A stretch of 24,002 bases of DNA from a virus. Made by a program: the position numbers and the translations under genes. This document shows, in pieces, positions 11,381 through 23,168 of the stretch; positions within the stretch are counted from its first letter, which is position 1; each line of letters begins with the position of its first letter. The DNA lies in IMG/VR virus record IMGVR_UViG_3300006925_000149, positions 1-24,002 of that record; one strand, 5' to 3'. The notes below the pieces were generated by a model. It saw nothing but the letters and a program-made list of their open reading frames with translations. It did no database searches and had not been told where the DNA came from.

Positions 11381-14173
11381 ATGAGTAATAAAAGATCTAA
11401 TAGAAATAATAAAAAAGTTTTAAAGGCTTTAAAAAATAAAAGGCTACAAGCGCATGCAGGGCAGCATGTAAGAGTAAGGGGAAGATACTCTCCACACAAT
11501 CCCAACTCAGAGTTACATTCTTTTGAGCCTGAAAGTGGTCAAGATGGGACTGGAATAGATCCTGTAGAAACAGTATCAAGTAATACAACAACTTCATATC
11601 CTTCGGGGGAAGGCGGTGGTTCTGTGGAATCTACACAAGATACTATAACTACGTATACTCCGGGAACTTCAGGAAGTCTTCCTACTACTTCAACAACCTT
11701 GGGGCCACCTAGGGTTGAAGCAAAACCTGCTGCAAAGTTCGAGATAGATGAAGTAGAGACTGAAGATGTTTCTTTAGAAGGCACTCAGTTAGAGCCTGCT
11801 GAACAAATAGGCGCGCAAACAGCAGTGGGTGCATCTACAGTAAAACCCCCACCTACCGTGAAAGGTGCCTTTGCACAATCAGCTAAACAGGGCGTTACAC
11901 CAACCGCTATTACACCTGCCAAAATAGAAGATGTAGCTCTTGTAGGTGCTGATGCATTAGACCCTACAACGGCAGCACAAGGCACTCTAAGCCCCGGAGC
12001 TATTGCCAGTGCTGAAGGCCCTACGCTTACTGAAAGGGCTGTAGCGGCTGAAAGAGATACTACACAAGAGCAAGCAGCTTTAGCAGAAGAACAAGATTTT
12101 ACTGTTTCAGGTAATGCTTTTGTAGATAAAGTAACAGGACAAACTGTAACTGTATCGCCTACTCCTGAAGCAGAAGCTAAAGAACGTGAAGCTATTACAG
12201 GTAAACCTGCTGATGATGGGCAAGCAGCACAAATTATAGATACTGTAGGATTTCAAGTTGCACAAAGACGTACAGTAACTGGTACGGCTGCAAAAGGTGC
12301 CGCAGCAGAAATGCTTGCAGAAGTAGGAGAGTTACCTCCTGATATTACAGCAGCCATTGTAGAAGATCCAGCAACTATTGAAGCACAGATTGACGATCAA
12401 CCTGTGGAAGTACGCGCAGCTATTGCAGCGTTACCTACAGAAGCTCTTGTATCTTCTCAAATGGAAACACTATTAGCTGGTATGGAGGACGGTAAAACTC
12501 CTGCGTGGGCTAGACCAGCAGTAGCAGCTATTGAGCAAAATCTTGCTAAGAGGGGCCTCTCAGCCTCTACAGTAGCCCGTGACTCACTCTTTAATGCAAT
12601 TATACAAAGTGCCTTACCAATGGCTCAAAGCAACGCACAGGCCCTCCAGCAGCGTGCAGCGCAGAACCTTTCTAATGAGCAGCAAGCCAATCTCACGCAG
12701 TCTACACAAGACATGCAAAGACGTATGGCTAACTTAGCTAATAGGCAAACAGCAGAATCTCAAACGGCTGCAAATGCTCAACAGATGGCAACCCTTCAAA
12801 GTCAGTTCACTCAACAAGCTGTGCTTACTACAGCTGAACAGCAGCAGCAAAGCCGTGTACAAAACTTACAAAATCAACAACAGGCTGCTGTATTACGCTC
12901 TCAAAATCAACAAGCTATAAATGCTCAAGAGCTTGGCAATGCTCAACAAATGGAATTAGCTAATCTTCAAATAGAAGATTCTACTGCTCGTGAAAATATG
13001 ACTGCTTACAATCAAAAGCGTCTTGTAGATATGCAAATAAGTGCTGATTTTCTTTCAAAGAATGCAGCGTTTAAACAGCAGATGGAACTAGCTAATCTTT
13101 CTAATGAGCAGCAGATGGAGCTTGCTAATCTTTCTGCTTTAAACCAAGCAGATGCACAAAGTCTTAGTGCAGAGCAACAAACTGAGTTGGCTAATCTTAA
13201 TGCACGTATGCAGACTAATTTAACTCAGGCAAAAATTGCTGAGAGCATGGGGGTAGCTCAATTAAATGTAGATCAGCAACGTGCTGTACAGAATGCTGCT
13301 ATGATTGCTAATGTAGACTTAACTAAGTTCAGTGCGGCTCAACAGGTTGAACTAGCTAATAGTAAGTTTATGCAGTCTATGACTATGGCAGACTTTAATG
13401 CTGAACAACAAACAGCGATGCAAAATGCTACCTTAATGGCTCAGATGGATCTTGCAGCGGCTGATCAGCGTACAAAGCTTGCTATTACTAATGCTCAAAA
13501 TTTCCTACAGATGGACATGGCGAATCTTAATAATAGACAACAAGCTGCTGTACTTGACCAGCAGTTAAAGCAACAACGTCTTCTTTCTGACCAAGCAGCG
13601 ACAAATGCTGCAAAGCAGTTTAATGCAGCCTCAGAGAATCAAACTAATCAATTCATGGCTAACTTAGAGGCTAATATGTCTCAGTTTAATGCTTCACAGA
13701 CAAATGCCATGAGACAGTTTAATGCTACTGAGCTTAGTAAGACAAGCGCCTTGAATGCTCAAAACGCTATAGAAGTCAATAAAGCTAATGCTGCTATCCG
13801 TAATCAAGTTGATCAGTTTAATTCTCAAGTAGAGTTTCAACGTGATCAATGGAATGCTGCTAATGCACAAGCTGTTGCACAGTCAAATGTAGAATGGCGT
13901 AGAAAGTCCAATACGATTGATAGTGCTGCTATTAATGCTGCTAACCAAGCAAACGCTCAGATGTCTTTTAACCTTAATTCAGCAGAGCAGTCTTTCTTAT
14001 GGCAGAACTTACGTGATGAGGCTGCTTATATAAGACAGTCTTATGAGAATGATCAACAGCGTAAGACTACTTTGTATGCTACTGCACTTGCTAACGAGCA
14101 ATCTGCTGATAAAGGTGGAAGTAGTACTAGAACACTTATGGATTTAGCAACTACATTCTTTAAGGAAATATAG
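11381..14173 (+). CDS. Giant hendecad-repeat internal virion protein
   Basis: 930 aa. Residues 1-35 are strongly basic. About 40-110 are Ser/Thr/Gly-rich and look disordered. About 110-330 are acidic and Ala/Thr-rich. Residues 360-422 (KTPAWARPAVAAIEQNLAKR and following) are a helical segment I know from marine phage structural proteins. Residues 423-895 are 43 uninterrupted 11-residue units rich in Gln, Asn and Ala, followed by a short tail (STRTLMDLATTFF). No enzyme motif is visible. It opens a run of five genes that take the place of the T7 internal core genes 14-16, so an ejection or core role is likely. AGGA (11371-11374) precedes the ATG. Confidence 0.6.
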   Translation: MSNKRSNRNNKKVLKALKNKRLQAHAGQHVRVRGRYSPHNPNSELHSFEPESGQDGTGIDPVETVSSNTTTSYPSGEGGGSVESTQDTITTYTPGTSGSLPTTSTTLGPPRVEAKPAAKFEIDEVETEDVSLEGTQLEPAEQIGAQTAVGASTVKPPPTVKGAFAQSAKQGVTPTAITPAKIEDVALVGADALDPTTAAQGTLSPGAIASAEGPTLTERAVAAERDTTQEQAALAEEQDFTVSGNAFVDKVTGQTVTVSPTPEAEAKEREAITGKPADDGQAAQIIDTVGFQVAQRRTVTGTAAKGAAAEMLAEVGELPPDITAAIVEDPATIEAQIDDQPVEVRAAIAALPTEALVSSQMETLLAGMEDGKTPAWARPAVAAIEQNLAKRGLSASTVARDSLFNAIIQSALPMAQSNAQALQQRAAQNLSNEQQANLTQSTQDMQRRMANLANRQTAESQTAANAQQMATLQSQFTQQAVLTTAEQQQQSRVQNLQNQQQAAVLRSQNQQAINAQELGNAQQMELANLQIEDSTARENMTAYNQKRLVDMQISADFLSKNAAFKQQMELANLSNEQQMELANLSALNQADAQSLSAEQQTELANLNARMQTNLTQAKIAESMGVAQLNVDQQRAVQNAAMIANVDLTKFSAAQQVELANSKFMQSMTMADFNAEQQTAMQNATLMAQMDLAAADQRTKLAITNAQNFLQMDMANLNNRQQAAVLDQQLKQQRLLSDQAATNAAKQFNAASENQTNQFMANLEANMSQFNASQTNAMRQFNATELSKTSALNAQNAIEVNKANAAIRNQVDQFNSQVEFQRDQWNAANAQAVAQSNVEWRRKSNTIDSAAINAANQANAQMSFNLNSAEQSFLWQNLRDEAAYIRQSYENDQQRKTTLYATALANEQSADKGGSSTRTLMDLATTFFKEI
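12647..14065 (+). repeat. 43 exact 11-residue (33-base) helical repeats
   Basis: Reading from residue 423 in steps of 11 gives units such as QQMELANLSNE, QQMELANLSAL, QQTELANLNAR, QQVELANSKFM, LQMDMANLNNR, NAAKQFNAASE and NAMRQFNATEL. The register never slips: 1419 bases is 43 x 33 exactly. Positions 1-2 favour QQ, position 5 Leu/Met/Val (later Gln), position 7 Asn, and position 8 Leu/Ala. Confidence 0.9.
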
Positions 14174-14182
14174 GATACTGAT

Positions 14183-15397
14183 ATGGGATTTTTTAAGAAA
14201 ATATTTAAAGGCGTTAAAAAGGTCTTTAAAAAGATTGGTAGTGGTATTAAAAGAGCTTTTAAAAGTATTGGAAAGTTCATGGGTAAGATCGGTGTTGTCG
14301 GTCAGATTGCTCTTTCTTTATTGCTACCCGGAATAGGGACAATGATTGGTGGGCTTGCTGGAGGCATGATGGCTTCTGGCAGTGCTCTTGTTAGAGGCGC
14401 TGGTACATTTTTGAATGCTGCCGTTAATGTCGGTAGTAAAATGGGAGGCATGGTAAAGACTGTGACTCAAGGTGTTACTAAAGTTATTGGTAATGTTGCA
14501 GGCGCTGTGCTTAATAAGATTCCCGGTGCCGACTCTCTTGTAAAAAGTGTAACAGGTCTTGACATAAATAACGCTAGTTTTGGAAATGCTGTAAAAGCCG
14601 CCCAAAGCACAGTAACTGACTTTGCTACACAAGGACGTGACTTGTTCTCTATGGATACTTTGACAGACCCTAATAAGTATATTAGCACTGAGACAAGGGC
14701 TAAGATAAATAAACTTGATGTTGATCTTCAAAAAGATTTAGACGCTGGTAAAACCATCGGAAGTGATCCATACACCCAAGCTCAAATAGAGGCCGACAGT
14801 ATTATAGAAAAGCCTTTAGAAACTTCTAAAACTATTGGTGCAGAGGCCGCTGCTCCTAGAGAAAGCTTATTAAGTCCTACACAGCAAAGAGGACTAGATT
14901 TTACTAAGGACTTTTCTCCTACTAAAATAGACGGAACTGTAGCTTATAAAGTAGCATCAGGCGAAGTCATGTATGCTCCAGAGGGTATTTTAGAAACTAT
15001 GCAGCAGCAAGGTTTAGATACTTCTAGCATAAAACAACTAAATTTTGCTGAGTTAGGTATTGAACAAGGTAAAGAAAAAATAAGTTCTTATGTATCTGAA
15101 AAGGTAGCAGCCTTACAAGACCCAATGTCCCTTGCAAAAGCAGGCTTTAATACTTATGCACAAACAAGACGTGAAGATGAAATGTTAGCTGCACAGCAGG
15201 CTGCTCTTGTAGGCGGTGATGTTATTAATGTAGGACAGTATCAAGATCCTAGTGCTTTCTTAGCCTACCAGACGCAGAATACTGTAGCACCTATAGCTTC
15301 TTTTCAACAGCCTGCTAATTATAATGCACCGCTTTCTAGCTGGGGTCAACAGTTTATGTTTGATCCCTTCGCGCAATTACCGATGAGGACAGCATAA
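14183..15397 (+). CDS. Internal virion protein with cationic amphipathic N-terminal helix
   Basis: 404 aa. Residues 3-36 form a Phe/Ile/Lys helix with 11-residue periodicity (FKKIFKGVKKV, FKKIGSGIKRA, FKSIGKFMGKI). Residues about 38-70 are hydrophobic and Gly-rich (VVGQIALSLLLPGIGTMIGG and on). The whole opening resembles a membrane-active peptide followed by a glycine-zipper-like segment. The remainder is polar and mostly helical, with SFQQPANYNAPLSSWGQQF near the end. It lies among the presumed ejection proteins, so insertion into the host membrane during DNA entry is a reasonable guess. Start at ATG 14183 with TAGGA upstream. Confidence 0.6.
   Translation: MGFFKKIFKGVKKVFKKIGSGIKRAFKSIGKFMGKIGVVGQIALSLLLPGIGTMIGGLAGGMMASGSALVRGAGTFLNAAVNVGSKMGGMVKTVTQGVTKVIGNVAGAVLNKIPGADSLVKSVTGLDINNASFGNAVKAAQSTVTDFATQGRDLFSMDTLTDPNKYISTETRAKINKLDVDLQKDLDAGKTIGSDPYTQAQIEADSIIEKPLETSKTIGAEAAAPRESLLSPTQQRGLDFTKDFSPTKIDGTVAYKVASGEVMYAPEGILETMQQQGLDTSSIKQLNFAELGIEQGKEKISSYVSEKVAALQDPMSLAKAGFNTYAQTRREDEMLAAQQAALVGGDVINVGQYQDPSAFLAYQTQNTVAPIASFQQPANYNAPLSSWGQQFMFDPFAQLPMRTA
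14192..14290 (+). repeat. Three 11-residue cationic helix repeats
   Basis: Phe at residues 4, 15 and 26, and Ile at 7, 18 and 29, are spaced by exactly 11. Lys/Arg fill most other polar sites. It is encoded by three 33-base units. Confidence 0.75.
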
Positions 15398-15951
15398 TGG
15401 ATGAAGAAACAACTCCAGAACTACAGGAGTATTTTTCTAAGATGGACAGACCTATTCCGGGTCAGTCCTTAACTGAAGATCCTGATACACAACAACCTTA
15501 TACGGCAGCGCCAGAGTTTACTGTGCCACAAGAAGCTGTAGAGTATCTATTTGATCAGATGACTCAAGAAGATAACTACCTGCCTTTAATGGATAGTATC
15601 CTAACAGGTACTACTATTATGGATGCTACTAGGCTCATATTATTCTCAGGCTTTAACGAAGGTAAATGGAATCCCGATCTTATGTTGTTGTTGATTGAGC
15701 CTACAGCTTATATGATTATGGGTCTTGCAGAACGTGCAGGTATTGACTACGAAGTTCAAGAAGACGATGAAGAAGATATGTTTGGTGTAGCTGTAGATCG
15801 TCCAGAGCTATCAGAACCTTCAGAGCTTTCAGAAGAGACACAAGATGTTATGGGTCGTGTTGAAAGTGCTGAACTTCCTGAAGTACCTACACAGTCTTTG
15901 ATGGCTCGTCCACCACCACCCCAACCTAGTTTAATGCAGAGGCAGGCGTAA
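15397..15951 (+). CDS. Acidic hypothetical protein in the internal-protein cluster
   Basis: 184 aa, acidic. A central helical part (about residues 48-125) includes a mildly hydrophobic stretch LMLLLIEPTAYMIMGLAERA. After it come an Asp/Glu run (QEDDEEDMF), a Ser-Glu repeat (PELSEPSELSEE), and a Pro/Gln-rich end (RPPPPQPSLMQRQA). I recognise no family. TAATG overlap with the gene upstream and a one-base gap to the gene downstream suggest a joint role with the ejection proteins, perhaps as an assembly partner or chaperone for their basic regions. Confidence 0.55.
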   Translation: MDEETTPELQEYFSKMDRPIPGQSLTEDPDTQQPYTAAPEFTVPQEAVEYLFDQMTQEDNYLPLMDSILTGTTIMDATRLILFSGFNEGKWNPDLMLLLIEPTAYMIMGLAERAGIDYEVQEDDEEDMFGVAVDRPELSEPSELSEETQDVMGRVESAELPEVPTQSLMARPPPPQPSLMQRQA

Positions 15952-15952
15952 T

Positions 15953-17269
15953 ATGGCTATTGAACAATTTGGAGAGTCCCTACTGACTCAAAAGCGTCAG
16001 CGTGATGCAGAGCAAGAAAAGAAGCTACGTAAGCGTGAAGACCGTAATGCACTGCTAGGTCTTGCAGGTACTGTAGGTATTGGGCTGTACAGGAAAAACT
16101 TAAAAGAAAAGCAACAAAATTTCTTGAACAGCCAGCCTGTTATGGATATGAAGATTAAATATAATCAGGCTCAAAGGATTGCAGACGATACTGAAGCAGA
16201 GCGTCAGCGCGTTATGAGTTTTGGCGGTAGTCATGAAGATTACTACTACGATAAAGCTTTTAAAGATATAAAAAGTGAGTATCTTTCTAGGTACTCTGAT
16301 GATTTAGACCGTGTCGCTTACATTAATGCTGGTAAATATGATGCTGCCATAGCTAAAGATGCTAGAGCTATCTATAAAGAACAATTAGATGCTCAGTTAG
16401 CAAGAGAGCAGTGGGCAGACAGATTTAAAGCTCAAGGATCTTTTGAAGACGTTTTAAGTATGTCAAATCAAAGACCTACTAGCGCCTTTGATGGCCTTTT
16501 AAACTTCTTACGTGGAAAGTCTGATCAAGAGCTTGACAGCCGTACTATACAGGCAATGCGTCAAAGTTCTTTGGGACGTGTTGCGTTACCCGCTTCGCCT
16601 GAAAAGCAGTCTGAAGCTCAGAGACTTGAAGAAGCTTATAGGATTACTAATAACATTATAGAGGCTCAAGATGTTGCCGATCTAGGTGAGCTAGAAAGAG
16701 ATACTAGAAAGGAGGTTACGTACACAGGAGGTTTTAATTCTACAACAGGTAAGTACGATTATAGAAAACAGATAAAGCAGTTTGATAAGGTCACTGGAGA
16801 AGAACTAGAGACTGTTTTGGAAAGAACAGAAACTGCCGACATGAATGATCAGTCGGCTATGGATATAATATCTTTAAAAAATCTTAGAACATCTTATGAC
16901 CCCCGTGTTAAAAGCACAACTGTTTTTAATGATGCGGGTGTTAAAGAGTTTAATCGTAGACTTAGAAAAGCTAACAATGATACAAATCTTGATACTCTTA
17001 AAAAGTATAATAAAGCTATGGATATTTTTTACGATGTAATGCAGGCTGAAACAGATCTTAGTGGAAATCCTGTGGATTATGTTACTTCACCTTCACAAAA
17101 ATTTAATGCTATTCAAGAAGCGGTCATTAAGTCTACGGGTTACAGCAATAGGTTTGCTCTTATTAATGAAAAAATATTTGGAGCATCAGCTACTGAAGAT
17201 AGTAGGAGAGAAGGAAGAGATGAGTACATACTAATTATGGAAGAGATAGCTAAATTAGGAAAACTTTAA
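15953..17269 (+). CDS. Putative internal virion protein, 438 aa
   Basis: 438 aa, highly charged and mostly helical. It opens with a basic coiled segment (KRQRDAEQEKKLRKREDR), then one weakly hydrophobic stretch (ALLGLAGTVGIGLYR, residues about 30-44). Long helices with many Asp, Lys, Arg and Gln follow, including SHEDYYYDKAFKDIKSEYL. A short beta-like part (VTYTGGFNSTTGKYDYRK) lies near residue 255. I see no catalytic motif. Its place directly before the 1712-aa gene matches T7 gene 15 before gene 16, which makes an internal core role plausible but unproven. Confidence 0.55.
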   Translation: MAIEQFGESLLTQKRQRDAEQEKKLRKREDRNALLGLAGTVGIGLYRKNLKEKQQNFLNSQPVMDMKIKYNQAQRIADDTEAERQRVMSFGGSHEDYYYDKAFKDIKSEYLSRYSDDLDRVAYINAGKYDAAIAKDARAIYKEQLDAQLAREQWADRFKAQGSFEDVLSMSNQRPTSAFDGLLNFLRGKSDQELDSRTIQAMRQSSLGRVALPASPEKQSEAQRLEEAYRITNNIIEAQDVADLGELERDTRKEVTYTGGFNSTTGKYDYRKQIKQFDKVTGEELETVLERTETADMNDQSAMDIISLKNLRTSYDPRVKSTTVFNDAGVKEFNRRLRKANNDTNLDTLKKYNKAMDIFYDVMQAETDLSGNPVDYVTSPSQKFNAIQEAVIKSTGYSNRFALINEKIFGASATEDSRREGRDEYILIMEEIAKLGKL

Positions 17270-20200
17270 ATGGCTAGTTATACTGATGAGTTTGGAAGAT
17301 CTATAGCTAAATTTGGGGAGACTTTAGCCCAAGCTCCTTTTAGTTTGGCAGACCTTGCGCGTTTTTACGCTGATTCACAGATGAGAGTGTTCACAGAGGA
17401 TGCTCCAAAAAGGCAGGGCCTTACGCCTGAAGAGCTTGAAGAACGTGCAGCATTAAAAGCAGATATATCTAAAGGTTTAACTGCGCCGATGCTAAGTGCT
17501 TTGGGGGTTAAAGAAGAAGATGTTTTTACTGAAGAAGGTAAAGTACGTGAGGCTGAAACTTATGCGGGAGCAGCAGGACAGTTCATAGGTGAAGTAGGTG
17601 CTTATGTTGTACCCTATACGGGCGTAACAAAAGCTGCACAGGCTGTGGGGCTTGGTGCAAAATATGCAGCGCCCATTACAGGTGCCGTTGTTTCTGAGCA
17701 ATTGTTAACAGATCCTCAATCAAATTTATTTAATTTTGTAGAAGAGACATTCCCAGAAGCTTCAAAAAATACTTTCATTGAGTACATGTCTGCTGACCCT
17801 GATGATGAAGAAGCAACTAACAGAATGAGAATGGTAGCTCAGGACGCTCTACTGATACCTATGATTGAGCGTGGTATTTCTTTTGTTGCTACTTTAAAAA
17901 GAATAAAACAGAGTAAGAGCTACGATAAGATGTCTGAAGAAGAGCAGACAGAAGTTGTTATGAGTTATCTTGAAAATGCTCGTAAAGAAGCAAAACGTGC
18001 AGACATAGAGGCCCGTAAAGAAGGCCGTATTGGTGTTGAGCGTGAAGACCTACCTGCTGCAAAAGAGGTAGTAAAAGAAACAACCGAAGGTGTTGAACAG
18101 GTTGCTGGTCAGGCTAGTCCGATTAAAAGGCTTTACCGTAGATTCATGACCTCTGAAGGTTACCTTACTCCACAGGCTTATAATGCTTTTAGGGACACCC
18201 AGTATTCTCAAAGACAAACAATAAGGGCTGCTGAAAATATCAGTAATAGGCTTAACCTTGCCCTGAAAAAAATTACAGATGAAACGTCTTCTAAAGAAAT
18301 GTCTGACCGGGTACAGAAAGCTTTACAGGCTGATGCAAGTTTTATTTATGAAATGCCTAAACAAGATCGTGTGGAGTTCTTCAGGACTGAGTACAGACTA
18401 TCAGAAGAAGTAGCTAATGAGGTCTTAAATGCCCGTGAGTTAATGGATGGTCTGTCTAGAAAGATTGTAGGTAGTAAAGGGTTTAGCGCAGATGTCAAGC
18501 AGTCTATATCAGCTAACGTAGGTAACTACATGCGTAGGTCTTACAGGATGTTTGAAGATCCTTCCTATACTCATACAAGTGAAGTGAAAGAAAACGCTGT
18601 ACAGTTTTTAGCTGATGATTTACTTGAAGCAACGCCCGACATGAATATTGATGATGCTCTTTCTAAGGCAAAGTCTCAGGTAGATGAAATACTAAGCAAA
18701 AGTGAAGATTATGAGGTAGTAGATTATCTTGCGAAGATTCGTAGAGTAACAAAATTTAAGCAGAGGAAAGATATTCCAGAGCCAATAAGAGCTTTATTGG
18801 GCGAAGTTACTTCTCCATCTGAAAGTATTATTTTGTCTGTTGCGAAGGCATCTAGAATTTATGAAGTAAATAATTTTTACAGACAGTTTAATGAGCTAGG
18901 AAAAACTGGTGGTTATCTTACTTCAAAAGAGTCAGGACGTAACACTGCTAAAATTACAGATACTAATTCAATATTGGATGGTAAGTACACTACCCCTGAG
19001 ATGTTGCAAGCTTTAGAACGTAAAGAAGAAATGTTTTCTAGCCTGATGGAAGGCACCAATCCTTTAGCTGTGTTGCTGCAAAACTTTTCAACTGCTAAAG
19101 GTTTTTCACAACAGATGAAGACCGTACTGAACCATGTAACACACATTCGTAACTTTTTAGGCGGCGCTCAGTTTGGCGTTGCTAATGGATTAAACCCTTT
19201 CTCTAGTAAGGGCTTGAAGTCTGTACGCAATCTAAGTAATAGTATTCTTCAGGGCGGGGATGAGGCCCTTAATACTGCCTATGAGAAGTATTTACGATTA
19301 GGGTTGATTAATACTAACGTAAAGGTCAATGAGTTTAGGGCTTTGCTTGAAACCGGCATGGAAAGGGAGCCTAGCTTTATTTTGAAGAAGCTGGGGGGTC
19401 TGAAGTATGCTGAAGAGATTCCCGGCGCTCGTCAGGTAGACGCAGGTACTAGATCTTTTCTTCGTAGTGCTGAAAATATATACATGGCTACAGACGATTT
19501 CTATAAGATAAATGCTTTTGGGAATGAACTTGCTACTTTAAAGAAGGCGTTCCCAGATCAAGCTGACGATGTACTAGAAATAAAAGCAGCGCAAATTGTT
19601 CAAGACACAATACCTAACTACGACAAAGTACCTAAAGGCATTAAAGCACTTAGGGACATGCCTGTGGGTAACTTCGTATCTTTCCCTGCTGAAATAGCTC
19701 GTACATCTTATAAGATTGTTAAGCAAGCTTCAGAAGAAATTAACTCTGGTAATTCTGTTTTAAGAAACAGAGGTCTTAAAAGGCTTGCAGGGTTCAGCAC
19801 CGCTGCAATAGGTTTTAATGAAGCTTCTAAAGCTTCTATGGATCTCCTTGGTTGGACAGAGGAAGAGCAGAGGGCGCATACAGACTTGGCTGAAGGGGCT
19901 TTTAACAAGGACTCTAACAAGATTTGGCGTATGGATGAGGACGGCCAGATCTATTTTGTAGATACACGCTTCTTAGACTCTTATGAGTTTGTAAAGCGTC
20001 CTATAATGATTGCTATGGACAGGCTAAATGAAGGCGCTCTGAGGGGTGACGATTTGGATGAGGCTTTATTTGAAGCTGCTAAAGATACTGCTACGTCTTT
20101 GTTAGAACCTTTTGCTTCTCAAGAGATGATTACTGAGGCTATACTAAATTCAGGCATAAAATATAAAAACGGATACATAGATGAAGCAGAGTTTTTGGGA

Positions 20201-22408
20201 GATGTCCTACAGACCTTTGTTCCCGGTTCAGCTACTTCTATACAAAGATATGTAGAGGCTTTGAATGAAGAGCCGAACAGGTACACAGGTGAACCCCGCA
20301 ACGCTGAGAATGAGTTAATGGCAAACATGACGGGTGTTAGGTTTACTAAGTATGACCCTGAATTAAATTTAAGCTTTGCTATAAGGGATTATAACAGGAT
20401 AGAAGACGCTAATCGTAGTAAAAAGTTCTTGTATGACACAGATACTGAAGAGTATTTAGGTGAGTACAGGGATCAGCAACAAGCAATATATTCTGCACAA
20501 CAAGAGTTGTTTAAGATTACAAACGCTTATGTAACTCTTTACGGTAAAGACGATGCTATGCGCGTACTGACTGAAAATGGTATTAGTAGACCAACTGCTG
20601 CTAGTGTTGTTTTAGGTCAGTTCAAAGGTACTGATCCTAGGGGTGATAAGCTTACTATAGAAGCTTATAGAGCTTTTCAGAAAATAAATCCTGAATTAGC
20701 TGATAAACAAGCGAAGAGATTTAGAGAGGAGCTATCCGGTGTACAAGCAGAACTAAACGGCTCATCGCTATACACCCCAGATTATAGGTTAGATACTTCT
20801 ACAGATACTTACAGGGAAGGTAAGGCCAAAGGCGGTGAAGTACTTGACGTACCTAACGTACCCAGAGAGCCTGACCAGCGCATCGACAAGATGACAGGGC
20901 TGCCCTATGACCAACAGGCTGGTACAGCTTTTGTGGATGAGGAAGACCCTTTACGTAGGTTAGGCTTTACAGGCGGTGGTGAGGTAGATCCCTTACGCCG
21001 ACTTGGTTTTGTTCCGGGCGGTACTGTTATTGCTAGAGGTCTTCGTGACCTGTTCACGCCTACCAAGACTGTAGGCAGTAAAGGTTCTAAACGTGTCGTA
21101 CAAGACCCTGACAAGCCTGTAGTGATGACACAGACTGAGGAGCTTGAAGAAACTTTAGATCCTAGAATGGGTAGAGCTATGGAGGCTGAAACAGCTTCTA
21201 GTGTTATGCCTGCTCCCGGTAAGTTCTTTGATCCTGAAAAGAGTTCATACAAAGAAGGTCTTACTAGGAAAGCAGAAGACGCTGGTATAGAGATAGATCT
21301 TGAGTTTGGTAAGTACTTAAAGATGGGCAGAGAACTAGAAGATGTTTCTAATAAAACATTCCAGAATCTTTATGTTACTGCGCGGCCTCCAATGGGTGTA
21401 GAGCAGCGTGGGTCTGTTATAGGGCCTCTTCCTGAAGTAAATCCCACTAGGGAGCAGGGAAAGCTGTCTACGTTTGGAGCAAGTAATAAAGCTATAGCTA
21501 GAGCCAACGAATATGATGGTGCTGATTTAACTATCGATGAAATGAAGGCTAACTATAAGAGAAATACAGGCGTGAAGAGTCCTCCTAGAGTACAGACAAA
21601 TCTTTTGCAGCCAGAGAAGTTTAAGATTATTACTGGTGAAGGGCCTAAACGATTAGATAATCCTATTGTTTCTGTAGAAGCGCCTGAATCTAGGGGCGGT
21701 CATTTTTACGCCTTAGACTACCAGCTTGTAGGGCCTGTAAGGATGAATGTTCTTACTGCCAAAAACAAGGAGGGTAAAGTTAATAGCCCTAACTTACGGC
21801 CTGAGACAGTTGGTGAAGTTAAGCTGGGTAATATAATTGGAACAGTTCAAACTTCAGGGAAAGGTAAGACTCACCCTCTCTATGACTACATTGAAGTAGA
21901 CGGTACGCCCTCACTACCTGAAGGCGTTACAAAGCGTGAGAAGTTTAAAAGAGGTGGTAAAGTTTTAGCGGCTTTGACAAGAAAGAAGTACTCAGGAGGG
22001 GGTAAGGTATCTCAGATTACGGAAAGATTAGCTAGAGAGCTTTTCGGTATTACAGCTAAAGATTTTCGTAAGCATGAGGGTCAAACCTTAGAGATGGTAG
22101 AGCGTCTTGTGGATGAAGGGAAGTTACCAGAACATGAGCGTGGGTACGGAGATGCTTTTAATCAGGCTAATCACATGAGACTAGCTAGACTGTCTGGTGA
22201 TAGTACTTTAAAAAGAGCAGGGTTGCAGGCTAAAGAGGTAGCTCAATATATTGGTGACAATGATCGTCATCCACAGCATGGGGCTATTGCTGATTTTAAA
22301 AATAATAATCTTGGGTTTGAGATATACGATAAAGTTAAAGGGGATAGTGCGGCTTTTGAGCAAGGCGTGGCTGACTATTTAACTGCACAGTATAGAGAAA
22401 ATAAATAA
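17270..22408 (+). CDS. Giant internal virion (ejection) protein, 1712 aa
   Basis: 1712 aa, the size class and position of T7 gp16. Residues about 97-145 hold a Gly/Ala-rich hydrophobic part that could insert into membrane. Residues 200-600 are helical and charged. About 615-640 (LNHVTHIRNFLGGAQFGVA) and 810-860 (PVGNFVSFPAEIARTSYKIV) resemble segments of large phage polyvalent or ejection proteins. From residue 1188 the protein becomes modular: GG(E/K/T)V linkers at 1188, 1236, 1250, 1562 and 1578 flank a tandem 14-residue DPLRRLGF repeat, a beta-rich domain (about 1350-1555), and a helical end domain with DAFNQANH and DFKNNNLG (1628-1682). No lytic transglycosylase motif was found. It probably enters the host with the DNA. 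Confidence 0.6.
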   Translation: MASYTDEFGRSIAKFGETLAQAPFSLADLARFYADSQMRVFTEDAPKRQGLTPEELEERAALKADISKGLTAPMLSALGVKEEDVFTEEGKVREAETYAGAAGQFIGEVGAYVVPYTGVTKAAQAVGLGAKYAAPITGAVVSEQLLTDPQSNLFNFVEETFPEASKNTFIEYMSADPDDEEATNRMRMVAQDALLIPMIERGISFVATLKRIKQSKSYDKMSEEEQTEVVMSYLENARKEAKRADIEARKEGRIGVEREDLPAAKEVVKETTEGVEQVAGQASPIKRLYRRFMTSEGYLTPQAYNAFRDTQYSQRQTIRAAENISNRLNLALKKITDETSSKEMSDRVQKALQADASFIYEMPKQDRVEFFRTEYRLSEEVANEVLNARELMDGLSRKIVGSKGFSADVKQSISANVGNYMRRSYRMFEDPSYTHTSEVKENAVQFLADDLLEATPDMNIDDALSKAKSQVDEILSKSEDYEVVDYLAKIRRVTKFKQRKDIPEPIRALLGEVTSPSESIILSVAKASRIYEVNNFYRQFNELGKTGGYLTSKESGRNTAKITDTNSILDGKYTTPEMLQALERKEEMFSSLMEGTNPLAVLLQNFSTAKGFSQQMKTVLNHVTHIRNFLGGAQFGVANGLNPFSSKGLKSVRNLSNSILQGGDEALNTAYEKYLRLGLINTNVKVNEFRALLETGMEREPSFILKKLGGLKYAEEIPGARQVDAGTRSFLRSAENIYMATDDFYKINAFGNELATLKKAFPDQADDVLEIKAAQIVQDTIPNYDKVPKGIKALRDMPVGNFVSFPAEIARTSYKIVKQASEEINSGNSVLRNRGLKRLAGFSTAAIGFNEASKASMDLLGWTEEEQRAHTDLAEGAFNKDSNKIWRMDEDGQIYFVDTRFLDSYEFVKRPIMIAMDRLNEGALRGDDLDEALFEAAKDTATSLLEPFASQEMITEAILNSGIKYKNGYIDEAEFLGDVLQTFVPGSATSIQRYVEALNEEPNRYTGEPRNAENELMANMTGVRFTKYDPELNLSFAIRDYNRIEDANRSKKFLYDTDTEEYLGEYRDQQQAIYSAQQELFKITNAYVTLYGKDDAMRVLTENGISRPTAASVVLGQFKGTDPRGDKLTIEAYRAFQKINPELADKQAKRFREELSGVQAELNGSSLYTPDYRLDTSTDTYREGKAKGGEVLDVPNVPREPDQRIDKMTGLPYDQQAGTAFVDEEDPLRRLGFTGGGEVDPLRRLGFVPGGTVIARGLRDLFTPTKTVGSKGSKRVVQDPDKPVVMTQTEELEETLDPRMGRAMEAETASSVMPAPGKFFDPEKSSYKEGLTRKAEDAGIEIDLEFGKYLKMGRELEDVSNKTFQNLYVTARPPMGVEQRGSVIGPLPEVNPTREQGKLSTFGASNKAIARANEYDGADLTIDEMKANYKRNTGVKSPPRVQTNLLQPEKFKIITGEGPKRLDNPIVSVEAPESRGGHFYALDYQLVGPVRMNVLTAKNKEGKVNSPNLRPETVGEVKLGNIIGTVQTSGKGKTHPLYDYIEVDGTPSLPEGVTKREKFKRGGKVLAALTRKKYSGGGKVSQITERLARELFGITAKDFRKHEGQTLEMVERLVDEGKLPEHERGYGDAFNQANHMRLARLSGDSTLKRAGLQAKEVAQYIGDNDRHPQHGAIADFKNNNLGFEIYDKVKGDSAAFEQGVADYLTAQYRENK
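20945..21028 (+). repeat. Tandem 42-base coding repeat
   Basis: Two 14-residue units, DPLRRLGFTGGGEV and DPLRRLGFVPGGTV, stand back to back and mark the start of the modular C-terminal part of the 1712-aa protein. Confidence 0.85.
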
Positions 22409-22777
22409 ATGTATAAGTACTTTACAGAAGAAGAACTAGAGTGTAAGCACTGTCAAACCAAGGGTATAGACCCTGAGTTCATGAAGAAGGTAGATGCCCT
22501 GCGTGAAAAGCTTGGATTTAGCTTCCCTGTAACCTCTGCATACCGTTGTAAAGACCACCCCATAGAGGCCCGTAAAGCCTCTCCGGGAGCACATGCTTCA
22601 GGTAGAGCCATAGATATAGGGGTACGTGGTGAAGCCGCTTACAAGCTCTTACAGGGCGCTCTAGAGGCAGGTTTCACTGGCATTGGTATTAGTCAGAAAG
22701 GTGGCTCTAGATTTATACACCTTGATGACCTTGAATGCTCTGAAGGCCGTCCAAGGCCCCACATTTGGAGTTATTAA
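22409..22777 (+). CDS. Peptidase M15-type endolysin
   Basis: 122 aa. It matches the Peptidase_M15_3 layout: an FTEEELECKHC opening, VTSAYRC near residue 41, the zinc motif PGAHASGRAIDI with His62 and Asp69, and the third ligand His104 in RFIHLDD. Enzymes of this family are zinc D,D- or L,D-peptidases that cut the peptide stems of peptidoglycan. Length is typical of single-domain phage endolysins, and no signal peptide is seen, so a holin is needed. The next gene is that holin. The ATG overlaps the end of the upstream stop context (TAAATG) with no clear ribosome binding site, so translation may depend on coupling. Confidence 0.85.
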   Translation: MYKYFTEEELECKHCQTKGIDPEFMKKVDALREKLGFSFPVTSAYRCKDHPIEARKASPGAHASGRAIDIGVRGEAAYKLLQGALEAGFTGIGISQKGGSRFIHLDDLECSEGRPRPHIWSY

Positions 22778-22778
22778 T

Positions 22779-23168
22779 ATGAGTATGCTAGCAAACTTAG
22801 TAGGCCCTGTCACTGGATTACTAGATAAGTTTATTGAAGACAAAGACCAGAAGGCAATGCTGGCTCACAAGATTGCTACGATGTCAGAAGAACATCATCA
22901 AGAGCTTATGAAGGGTCAGCTTGAAGTTAACAAGACTGAAGCAGCACACTCTAGTATCTTTGTAAGTGGTTGGAGGCCCTTCATTGGCTGGACATGTGGA
23001 CTAGGAATGTTCGGTAACTTTATTACAATTCCATTTGCAAACTTTGTACTGGCTTTAGTGGGTATAGACATTGTTATTCCTCTTGTACCGCTAGAAACTA
23101 TGATGCCTGTCCTTATGGGTATGTTGGGTTTGGGTGCTATGAGGAGTTATGAGAAGACCCGCAAATGA
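22779..23168 (+). CDS. Three-transmembrane holin
   Basis: 129 aa from ATG 22779, which has GGAG 8 bases upstream (22767-22770). An upstream in-frame extension to 22683 would lie inside the endolysin gene and is rejected. Residues 15-57 form a charged amphipathic helix. Then comes FVSGWRPFIGWTCGL (residues 61-75) and three hydrophobic segments at about 66-83, 84-103 and 106-122, ending MLGLGAMRSYEKTRK. The SGWRP and LGLGaxRxYEK motifs are those of the 3-TM holin family (GTA_holin_3TM). It would open the inner membrane so that the M15 enzyme reaches the cell wall. Confidence 0.85.
   Translation: MSMLANLVGPVTGLLDKFIEDKDQKAMLAHKIATMSEEHHQELMKGQLEVNKTEAAHSSIFVSGWRPFIGWTCGLGMFGNFITIPFANFVLALVGIDIVIPLVPLETMMPVLMGMLGLGAMRSYEKTRK

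Follow-up and report, generated by a model that had tools for sequence, protein, structure and literature searches.

How HMO-2011-type phages, which rank with the most abundant phages of the sea (PMC9038755), pass their DNA through the host envelope is a question for which no account was found in the literature. It is raised here by a gene for a 404-aa protein (14183..15397, plus strand), an ATG-start ORF with homologues in viral contigs and in isolated phages, whose product opens with a segment resembling an antimicrobial peptide. The sequence-only reading of this locus proposed that the segment serves, jointly with the product of the preceding gene, as a membrane device during DNA entry. The present analysis names a specific conserved candidate membrane element in the likely ejection module of HMO-2011-type phages, one that is unannotated in PHROGs and Pfam, and as isolated phages carry the 404-like element, its role is testable there.

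The gene block and its cationic helix

The window, that is, the whole stretch of DNA analysed, corresponds to a source record that is a single virus contig of 24,002 bases, and it is a fragment of a short-tailed marine phage of the HMO-2011/HTVC103P type: HMO-2011, HTVC103P and their short-tailed marine relatives provide the matches to its coat protein, tail proteins and a tail-B-like gene. A block of five plus-strand genes (products of 930, 404, 184, 438 and 1712 aa) closes the structural region of the window and plausibly constitutes a DNA-entry module. Its first gene (11381..14173) encodes a Q/N-rich homologue of HTVC103P gp59, in which lag tests reveal an 11/22-residue repeat over residues 411-900. 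The 404-aa gene is followed by the gene of the 184-aa protein (15397..15951), a conserved downstream neighbour whose order is kept in most homologue loci, and which HTVC103P gp54 and HMO-2011 gp24 resemble, by eye, at the equivalent place. Judged by position only, the 438-aa (15953..17269) and 1712-aa (17270..22408) proteins are a probable internal virion protein and a probable large internal virion protein, respectively; the latter has no PHROG or Pfam match, and its own start is fairly amphipathic (residues 4-21, moment 0.58).

The segment encoded at 14192-14290 consists, exactly as claimed, of the units FKKIFKGVKKV, FKKIGSGIKRA and FKSIGKFMGKI, which are residues 4-36 of the 404-aa ORF. Its cationic nature is borne out as well, since residues 1-37 contain 11 Lys, a single Arg and no acidic residue (net charge +12). 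In the other proteins of the window Lys and Arg are used about equally (317 Lys, 299 Arg). The best 18-mer hydrophobic moment of the protein is 0.78, when the next among the 21 window genes compared reaches 0.61 at most, and the moment of the 35-residue segment was attained by 0 of 5000 shuffles. The Lys-rich amphipathic helix was accordingly delimited to residues 3-37 (14189..14293, plus strand) by the moment, charge and lag tests, the AlphaFold2 model and its top conservation within the family. AlphaFold2 predicts a single helix over residues 3-47, with a pLDDT of 86-92 over the first 30 residues, in a model that is poor overall (mean pLDDT 65, pTM 0.27). The Gly-rich hydrophobic stretch that had been described behind the helix is also there, with Kyte-Doolittle 19-mer means of up to 1.73 across residues 36-60; as a feature it was set to residues 38-62 (14294..14368, plus strand), on the strength of its hydropathy and of the conserved G37, G40 and P49. 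Further downstream on the same strand lie helices predicted with moderate to low confidence (residues 69-187, 14387..14743) and a variable C-terminal half (residues 188-404, 14744..15394), where the frequency of the top residue is mostly below 0.2.

The 11-residue register in which the three units stack is present in the sequence, with an identity of 0.42 at spacing 11 (P=0.0008 against a plain shuffle), but it is explained by amphipathicity, because it reappears (P=0.22) when residues trade places only inside their own class (hydrophobic, basic or other) and the helix pattern is preserved. The register is therefore what a regular amphipathic helix with few residue types produces, and is ordinary for such a helix. 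The strongest spacings among 37 non-redundant 404-type N-termini are 11, 4, 7 and 18, as is characteristic of an amphipathic alpha-helix. Units 1 and 2 share six residues, two of them with the same codon, and as identical residues mostly have different codons, the three units are not a recent duplication. The helix is shorter in three homologues (L004, L031 and L032); the loss of one 11-residue unit was ruled out as the cause, because the alignment shows a difference of 7 residues. The further claim that the two adjacent genes share hendecad helices needs qualification: the 930-aa protein displays a true repeat with peaks at lags 11, 22, 33 and 44 (z 7.0, 8.8, 6.4 and 8.7), lags 7 and 18 being without a peak, whereas the 404-type N-termini peak at 4, 7, 11 and 18. 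One is a sequence repeat and the other an amphipathic helix, hence the adjacent genes have no common repeat type.

Conservation and distribution

A homologue search seeded with peptides of the gene returned 53 viral-contig relatives of the 404-aa protein, all with a cationic start. The seeds included MGFFKKIF, which biases this set, and conservation was therefore retested in a set found via an alignment of 930-like proteins. Among the 76 loci of the latter whose next gene was readable, which include close relatives and are thus not 76 independent cases, the next gene is strongly cationic in 67 (net charge of at least +7, range +7 to +17, in the first 45 residues), and the cationic start leads, as a rule, into a Gly-rich hydrophobic stretch. 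In two of the nine exceptions (L138 and L141) the cationic gene comes second, behind an acyltransferase gene, and in two others the script apparently read past the gene (L075, which is the same contig as the gene-bearing L024, and, by appearance only, L090). The cationic gene is absent as next gene in L143, L144, L146 and L147, and the next gene of L087 has a net charge of +1.

Within the family (45 distinct sequences in the first set), conservation is highest in residues 1-40, in contrast to a hypervariable C-terminal half. The first 40 residues have on average 11.0 Lys, 0.8 Arg and 0.27 acidic residues, the Phe/Ile/Val face of the helix is conserved, and G37, G40 and P49 vary little or not at all across 85 sequences. 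The motif at the head of the hydrophobic stretch starts at residue 37 in 38 of 67 proteins, and elsewhere at residue 25, 30, 35, 39, 42, 44, 47, 48, 56 or 69; it is unrecognised in 12 of the 67. According to the earlier reading, homologues lacking both the charge and the periodicity would speak against it; they keep the charge and the amphipathic phase, so the reading withstands the sequence half of this test, although the helix also varies by steps other than 11.

The genomic context is equally stable, as the 404-like gene lies directly after the 930-like Q/N-rich gene in 52 of the 53 homologue loci, the remaining one being cut by the contig end, and a large Q/N-rich gene is found upstream in all 52 loci with a readable upstream gene. 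This adjacency, together with the retained charge and phase, lends support to the DNA-entry part of the earlier proposal, but not to the register as a design common to both genes. The start is kept more strictly than any other part, which suggests that the protein probably serves DNA entry and contacts the membrane with this end; a membrane-active role in DNA entry thus finds comparative support and is plausible on sequence grounds.

Isolated phages with the gene include the pelagiphages HTVC103P (gp58), HTVC104P (gp60), HTVC115P (gp45) and Pseudoalteromonas phage Slicky01 (a 321-aa protein), and all four products are annotated as hypothetical. Since tblastn of the 404-aa protein against isolated phages gave no match, these relatives were reached by gene position and profile. 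Profile alignment with hhalign, which covered gp58, gp45 and the Slicky01 protein, links these three to the 404-type family with 96-98% probability over ~110 residues (E 4e-9 to 4e-13). All four products share with the 404-aa protein the place after a Q/N-rich gene and a cationic amphipathic start followed by a Gly-rich hydrophobic stretch, but their identity to it is low, their helices are longer or differently phased and their C-terminal halves are unrelated. A 404-like gene is absent at that place from HMO-2011 and from the Roseobacter, Rhizobium and Sinorhizobium phages examined, and in CHOED and MQM1 the position is taken by a short protein that lacks the strong charge. With so many relatives devoid of it, the 404-like gene is not essential to the phage type. 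In HTVC033P, the gene directly after the short 930-like gene (at L060:8044-8388) encodes instead a protein of 114 aa whose start is hydrophobic and rich in Gly/Ala. A profile scan of the genome collection with a narrower alignment gave a single contig with the five-gene block of the window. The block occupies L150:674-11323, and the contig is assigned to a Sphingobacteriales MAG; it is probably a phage contig, which leaves its MAG host assignment uncertain.

Candidate roles of the 404-aa protein

On a narrow balance, the 404-aa protein appears to be an accessory protein of the ejection module, of the internal virion or pilot kind, the cationic end of which contacts the membrane; its packaging into the virion, ejection, membrane binding and partnership with the 930-aa protein are inferred together. 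The first ~45 residues would form one continuous Lys-rich amphipathic helix that leads into the Gly-rich hydrophobic segment. Upon ejection, this helix would settle through its Phe/Ile/Val face on the anionic LPS or phospholipid of the host envelope and aid the insertion of the hydrophobic segment, and the inserted end might then anchor or open the membrane for a DNA conduit, the tube of which may be the Q/N-rich 930-aa protein.

Protein binding or DNA binding could just as well account for a conserved amphipathic helix, and both options were weighed against an ejection role. If the helix worked within the capsid, it would bind packaged DNA, with its hydrophobic face and the Gly-rich segment packed on internal proteins. 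The net charge of +12 without any acidic residue and the virion-type neighbourhood are in accord with this, but DNA binding needs neither the strictly conserved Phe/Ile/Val face nor the hydrophobic segment, and the use of Lys almost to the exclusion of Arg also argues against it, which makes such a role unlikely. A docking element of tape-measure-like or scaffolding character, with the portal, the tail or the 930-aa protein as its partner and without any membrane role, would account for the fixed adjacency to the 930-like gene. The 404-aa protein has no accepted PHROG or Pfam family (a Pfam match to DUF2789 with an E of 0.007 fails the family cut-off), and the docking option draws on the weak matches of 41 of the 85 family members to the tape measure profile phrog_167 (best E 1.9e-8) and of 37 of the 85 to phrog_1272. 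In tape measure proteins an F/W marker recurs every 11 residues (PMC3271669), and the 404-aa helix likewise has an aromatic residue every 11 positions (F4, F15 and F26). However, the regions matched by the profiles are helical and of low complexity, and this phage type has no long tail, so membership of the tape measure family by PHROG was rejected. Unlike a tape measure, the 404-aa protein has three units only, at its N-terminus, in the gene set of a short-tailed phage, and the register follows from amphipathicity. Foldseek searches with both models returned no match with E <0.001, tape measure proteins included, and a docking helix would not need to exclude acidic residues almost totally; this explanation is accordingly held to be rather improbable. 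Matches to LysM and type III translocon proteins in a few family members are weak, and a simple motif scan for LysM gave nothing convincing.

The peptide-like N-terminus could also belong to a lysis factor that acts like an antimicrobial peptide and disrupts the membrane when infection ends. Phage-encoded cationic peptides required for lysis exist, for example disruptin of phage phiKT, which provides a precedent. Nevertheless, the 404-aa protein is encoded inside the structural block, and the window has, apart from it, an M15 peptidase-type endolysin gene (22409-22777) and a holin-like gene (22683-23168), so that a lysis function is very improbable indeed.

Neighbouring genes and known systems

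The ejection role proposed above for the 404-aa protein leads to a second testable idea, in which a HlyC-type enzyme acylates a phage entry protein. HTVC115P gp46, annotated as a toxin-activating lysine acyltransferase (Pfam HlyC match, E 1e-15), is encoded between the 930-like and 404-like genes, and the HlyC-family gene of this HTVC115P-type arrangement is found at L058:6978-7427, L138:7733-8188 and L141:2185-2634. A scan seeded with gp46 gave nine viral-contig loci (L151-L159), which include several near-duplicates and one contig identical to that of L141 (L153). The next gene is a cationic 404-like gene in all nine, with an overlap of 8-17 bases, and in all eight with a readable upstream gene the upstream product ends like a 930-like protein. 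The link is not exclusive, as the HlyC-family gene of CRP-235 adjoins a different structural gene, and there is no acyltransferase gene within the 24 kb window, which is part of a genome only. The order of acyltransferase and 404-like genes in the HTVC115P lineage recalls the hlyC-hlyA order of RTX operons. Gene order thus hints, as a long shot, that the Lys-rich ejection protein might be a substrate of fatty acylation, that some phages might lipidate their DNA-entry protein for membrane insertion, and that the phage of the window, as far as its 24 kb are seen, might have the unmodified version.

The C-terminus of the 930-like proteins tends to differ with the presence of the 404 gene. A Gly/Ala-rich hydrophobic tail reaches the threshold, which was picked after the tails were seen, in 10 of 14 genomes without the 404 gene versus 8 of 122 with it (Mann-Whitney P=1.6e-7 for the tail difference, uncorrected for relatedness). 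In the simplest view, these phages need a membrane-contacting element, which would be supplied by either the tail of the 930-like protein or the 404-aa protein. Tails in genomes without the gene are seen at L055:30404-32524, L057:28583-31117 and L069:5597-8011, among others. In CRP-235 and CRP-738 a further stretch extends beyond the hydrophobic tail, with an SDIRLKENI-like motif in CRP-235; this stretch may resemble an S74 chaperone domain.

With regard to known ejection systems, podoviral ejection proteins of the T7 gp14 and gp16 type generally possess membrane-spanning elements (PMC8954989). The podoviral ejection genes (T7 gp14/15/16 and P22 gp7/20/16) resemble the block of the window in layout, as large genes of unknown or internal-virion type are clustered within the structural region. 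In contrast to the 404-aa protein, T7 gp14 and P22 gp20 do not start with a comparable cationic helix, and hhalign comparison with T7 gp14, gp15 and gp16 and P22 gp20 and gp16 indicated no homology (probability of at most 1.1%). No virion proteomics for the HMO-2011/HTVC103P phage type was found in the literature. The 930-aa neighbour is a Q/N-rich protein of only slight acidity, and its 22-residue repeat, equal to two hendecads, is strongest at spacings 22 and 44 (12611-14080 of the window). In the DNA pilot protein H of phiX174, the tube is built of Q-rich hendecads and has an N/Q/R-lined lumen (PMC7354561). The likeness is one of features, namely Q/N-rich 11/22 repeats, and it concerns the 930-aa protein, not the 404-aa protein; the H tube is thus reminiscent of the 930-aa protein, of which it would be the closest documented analogue.
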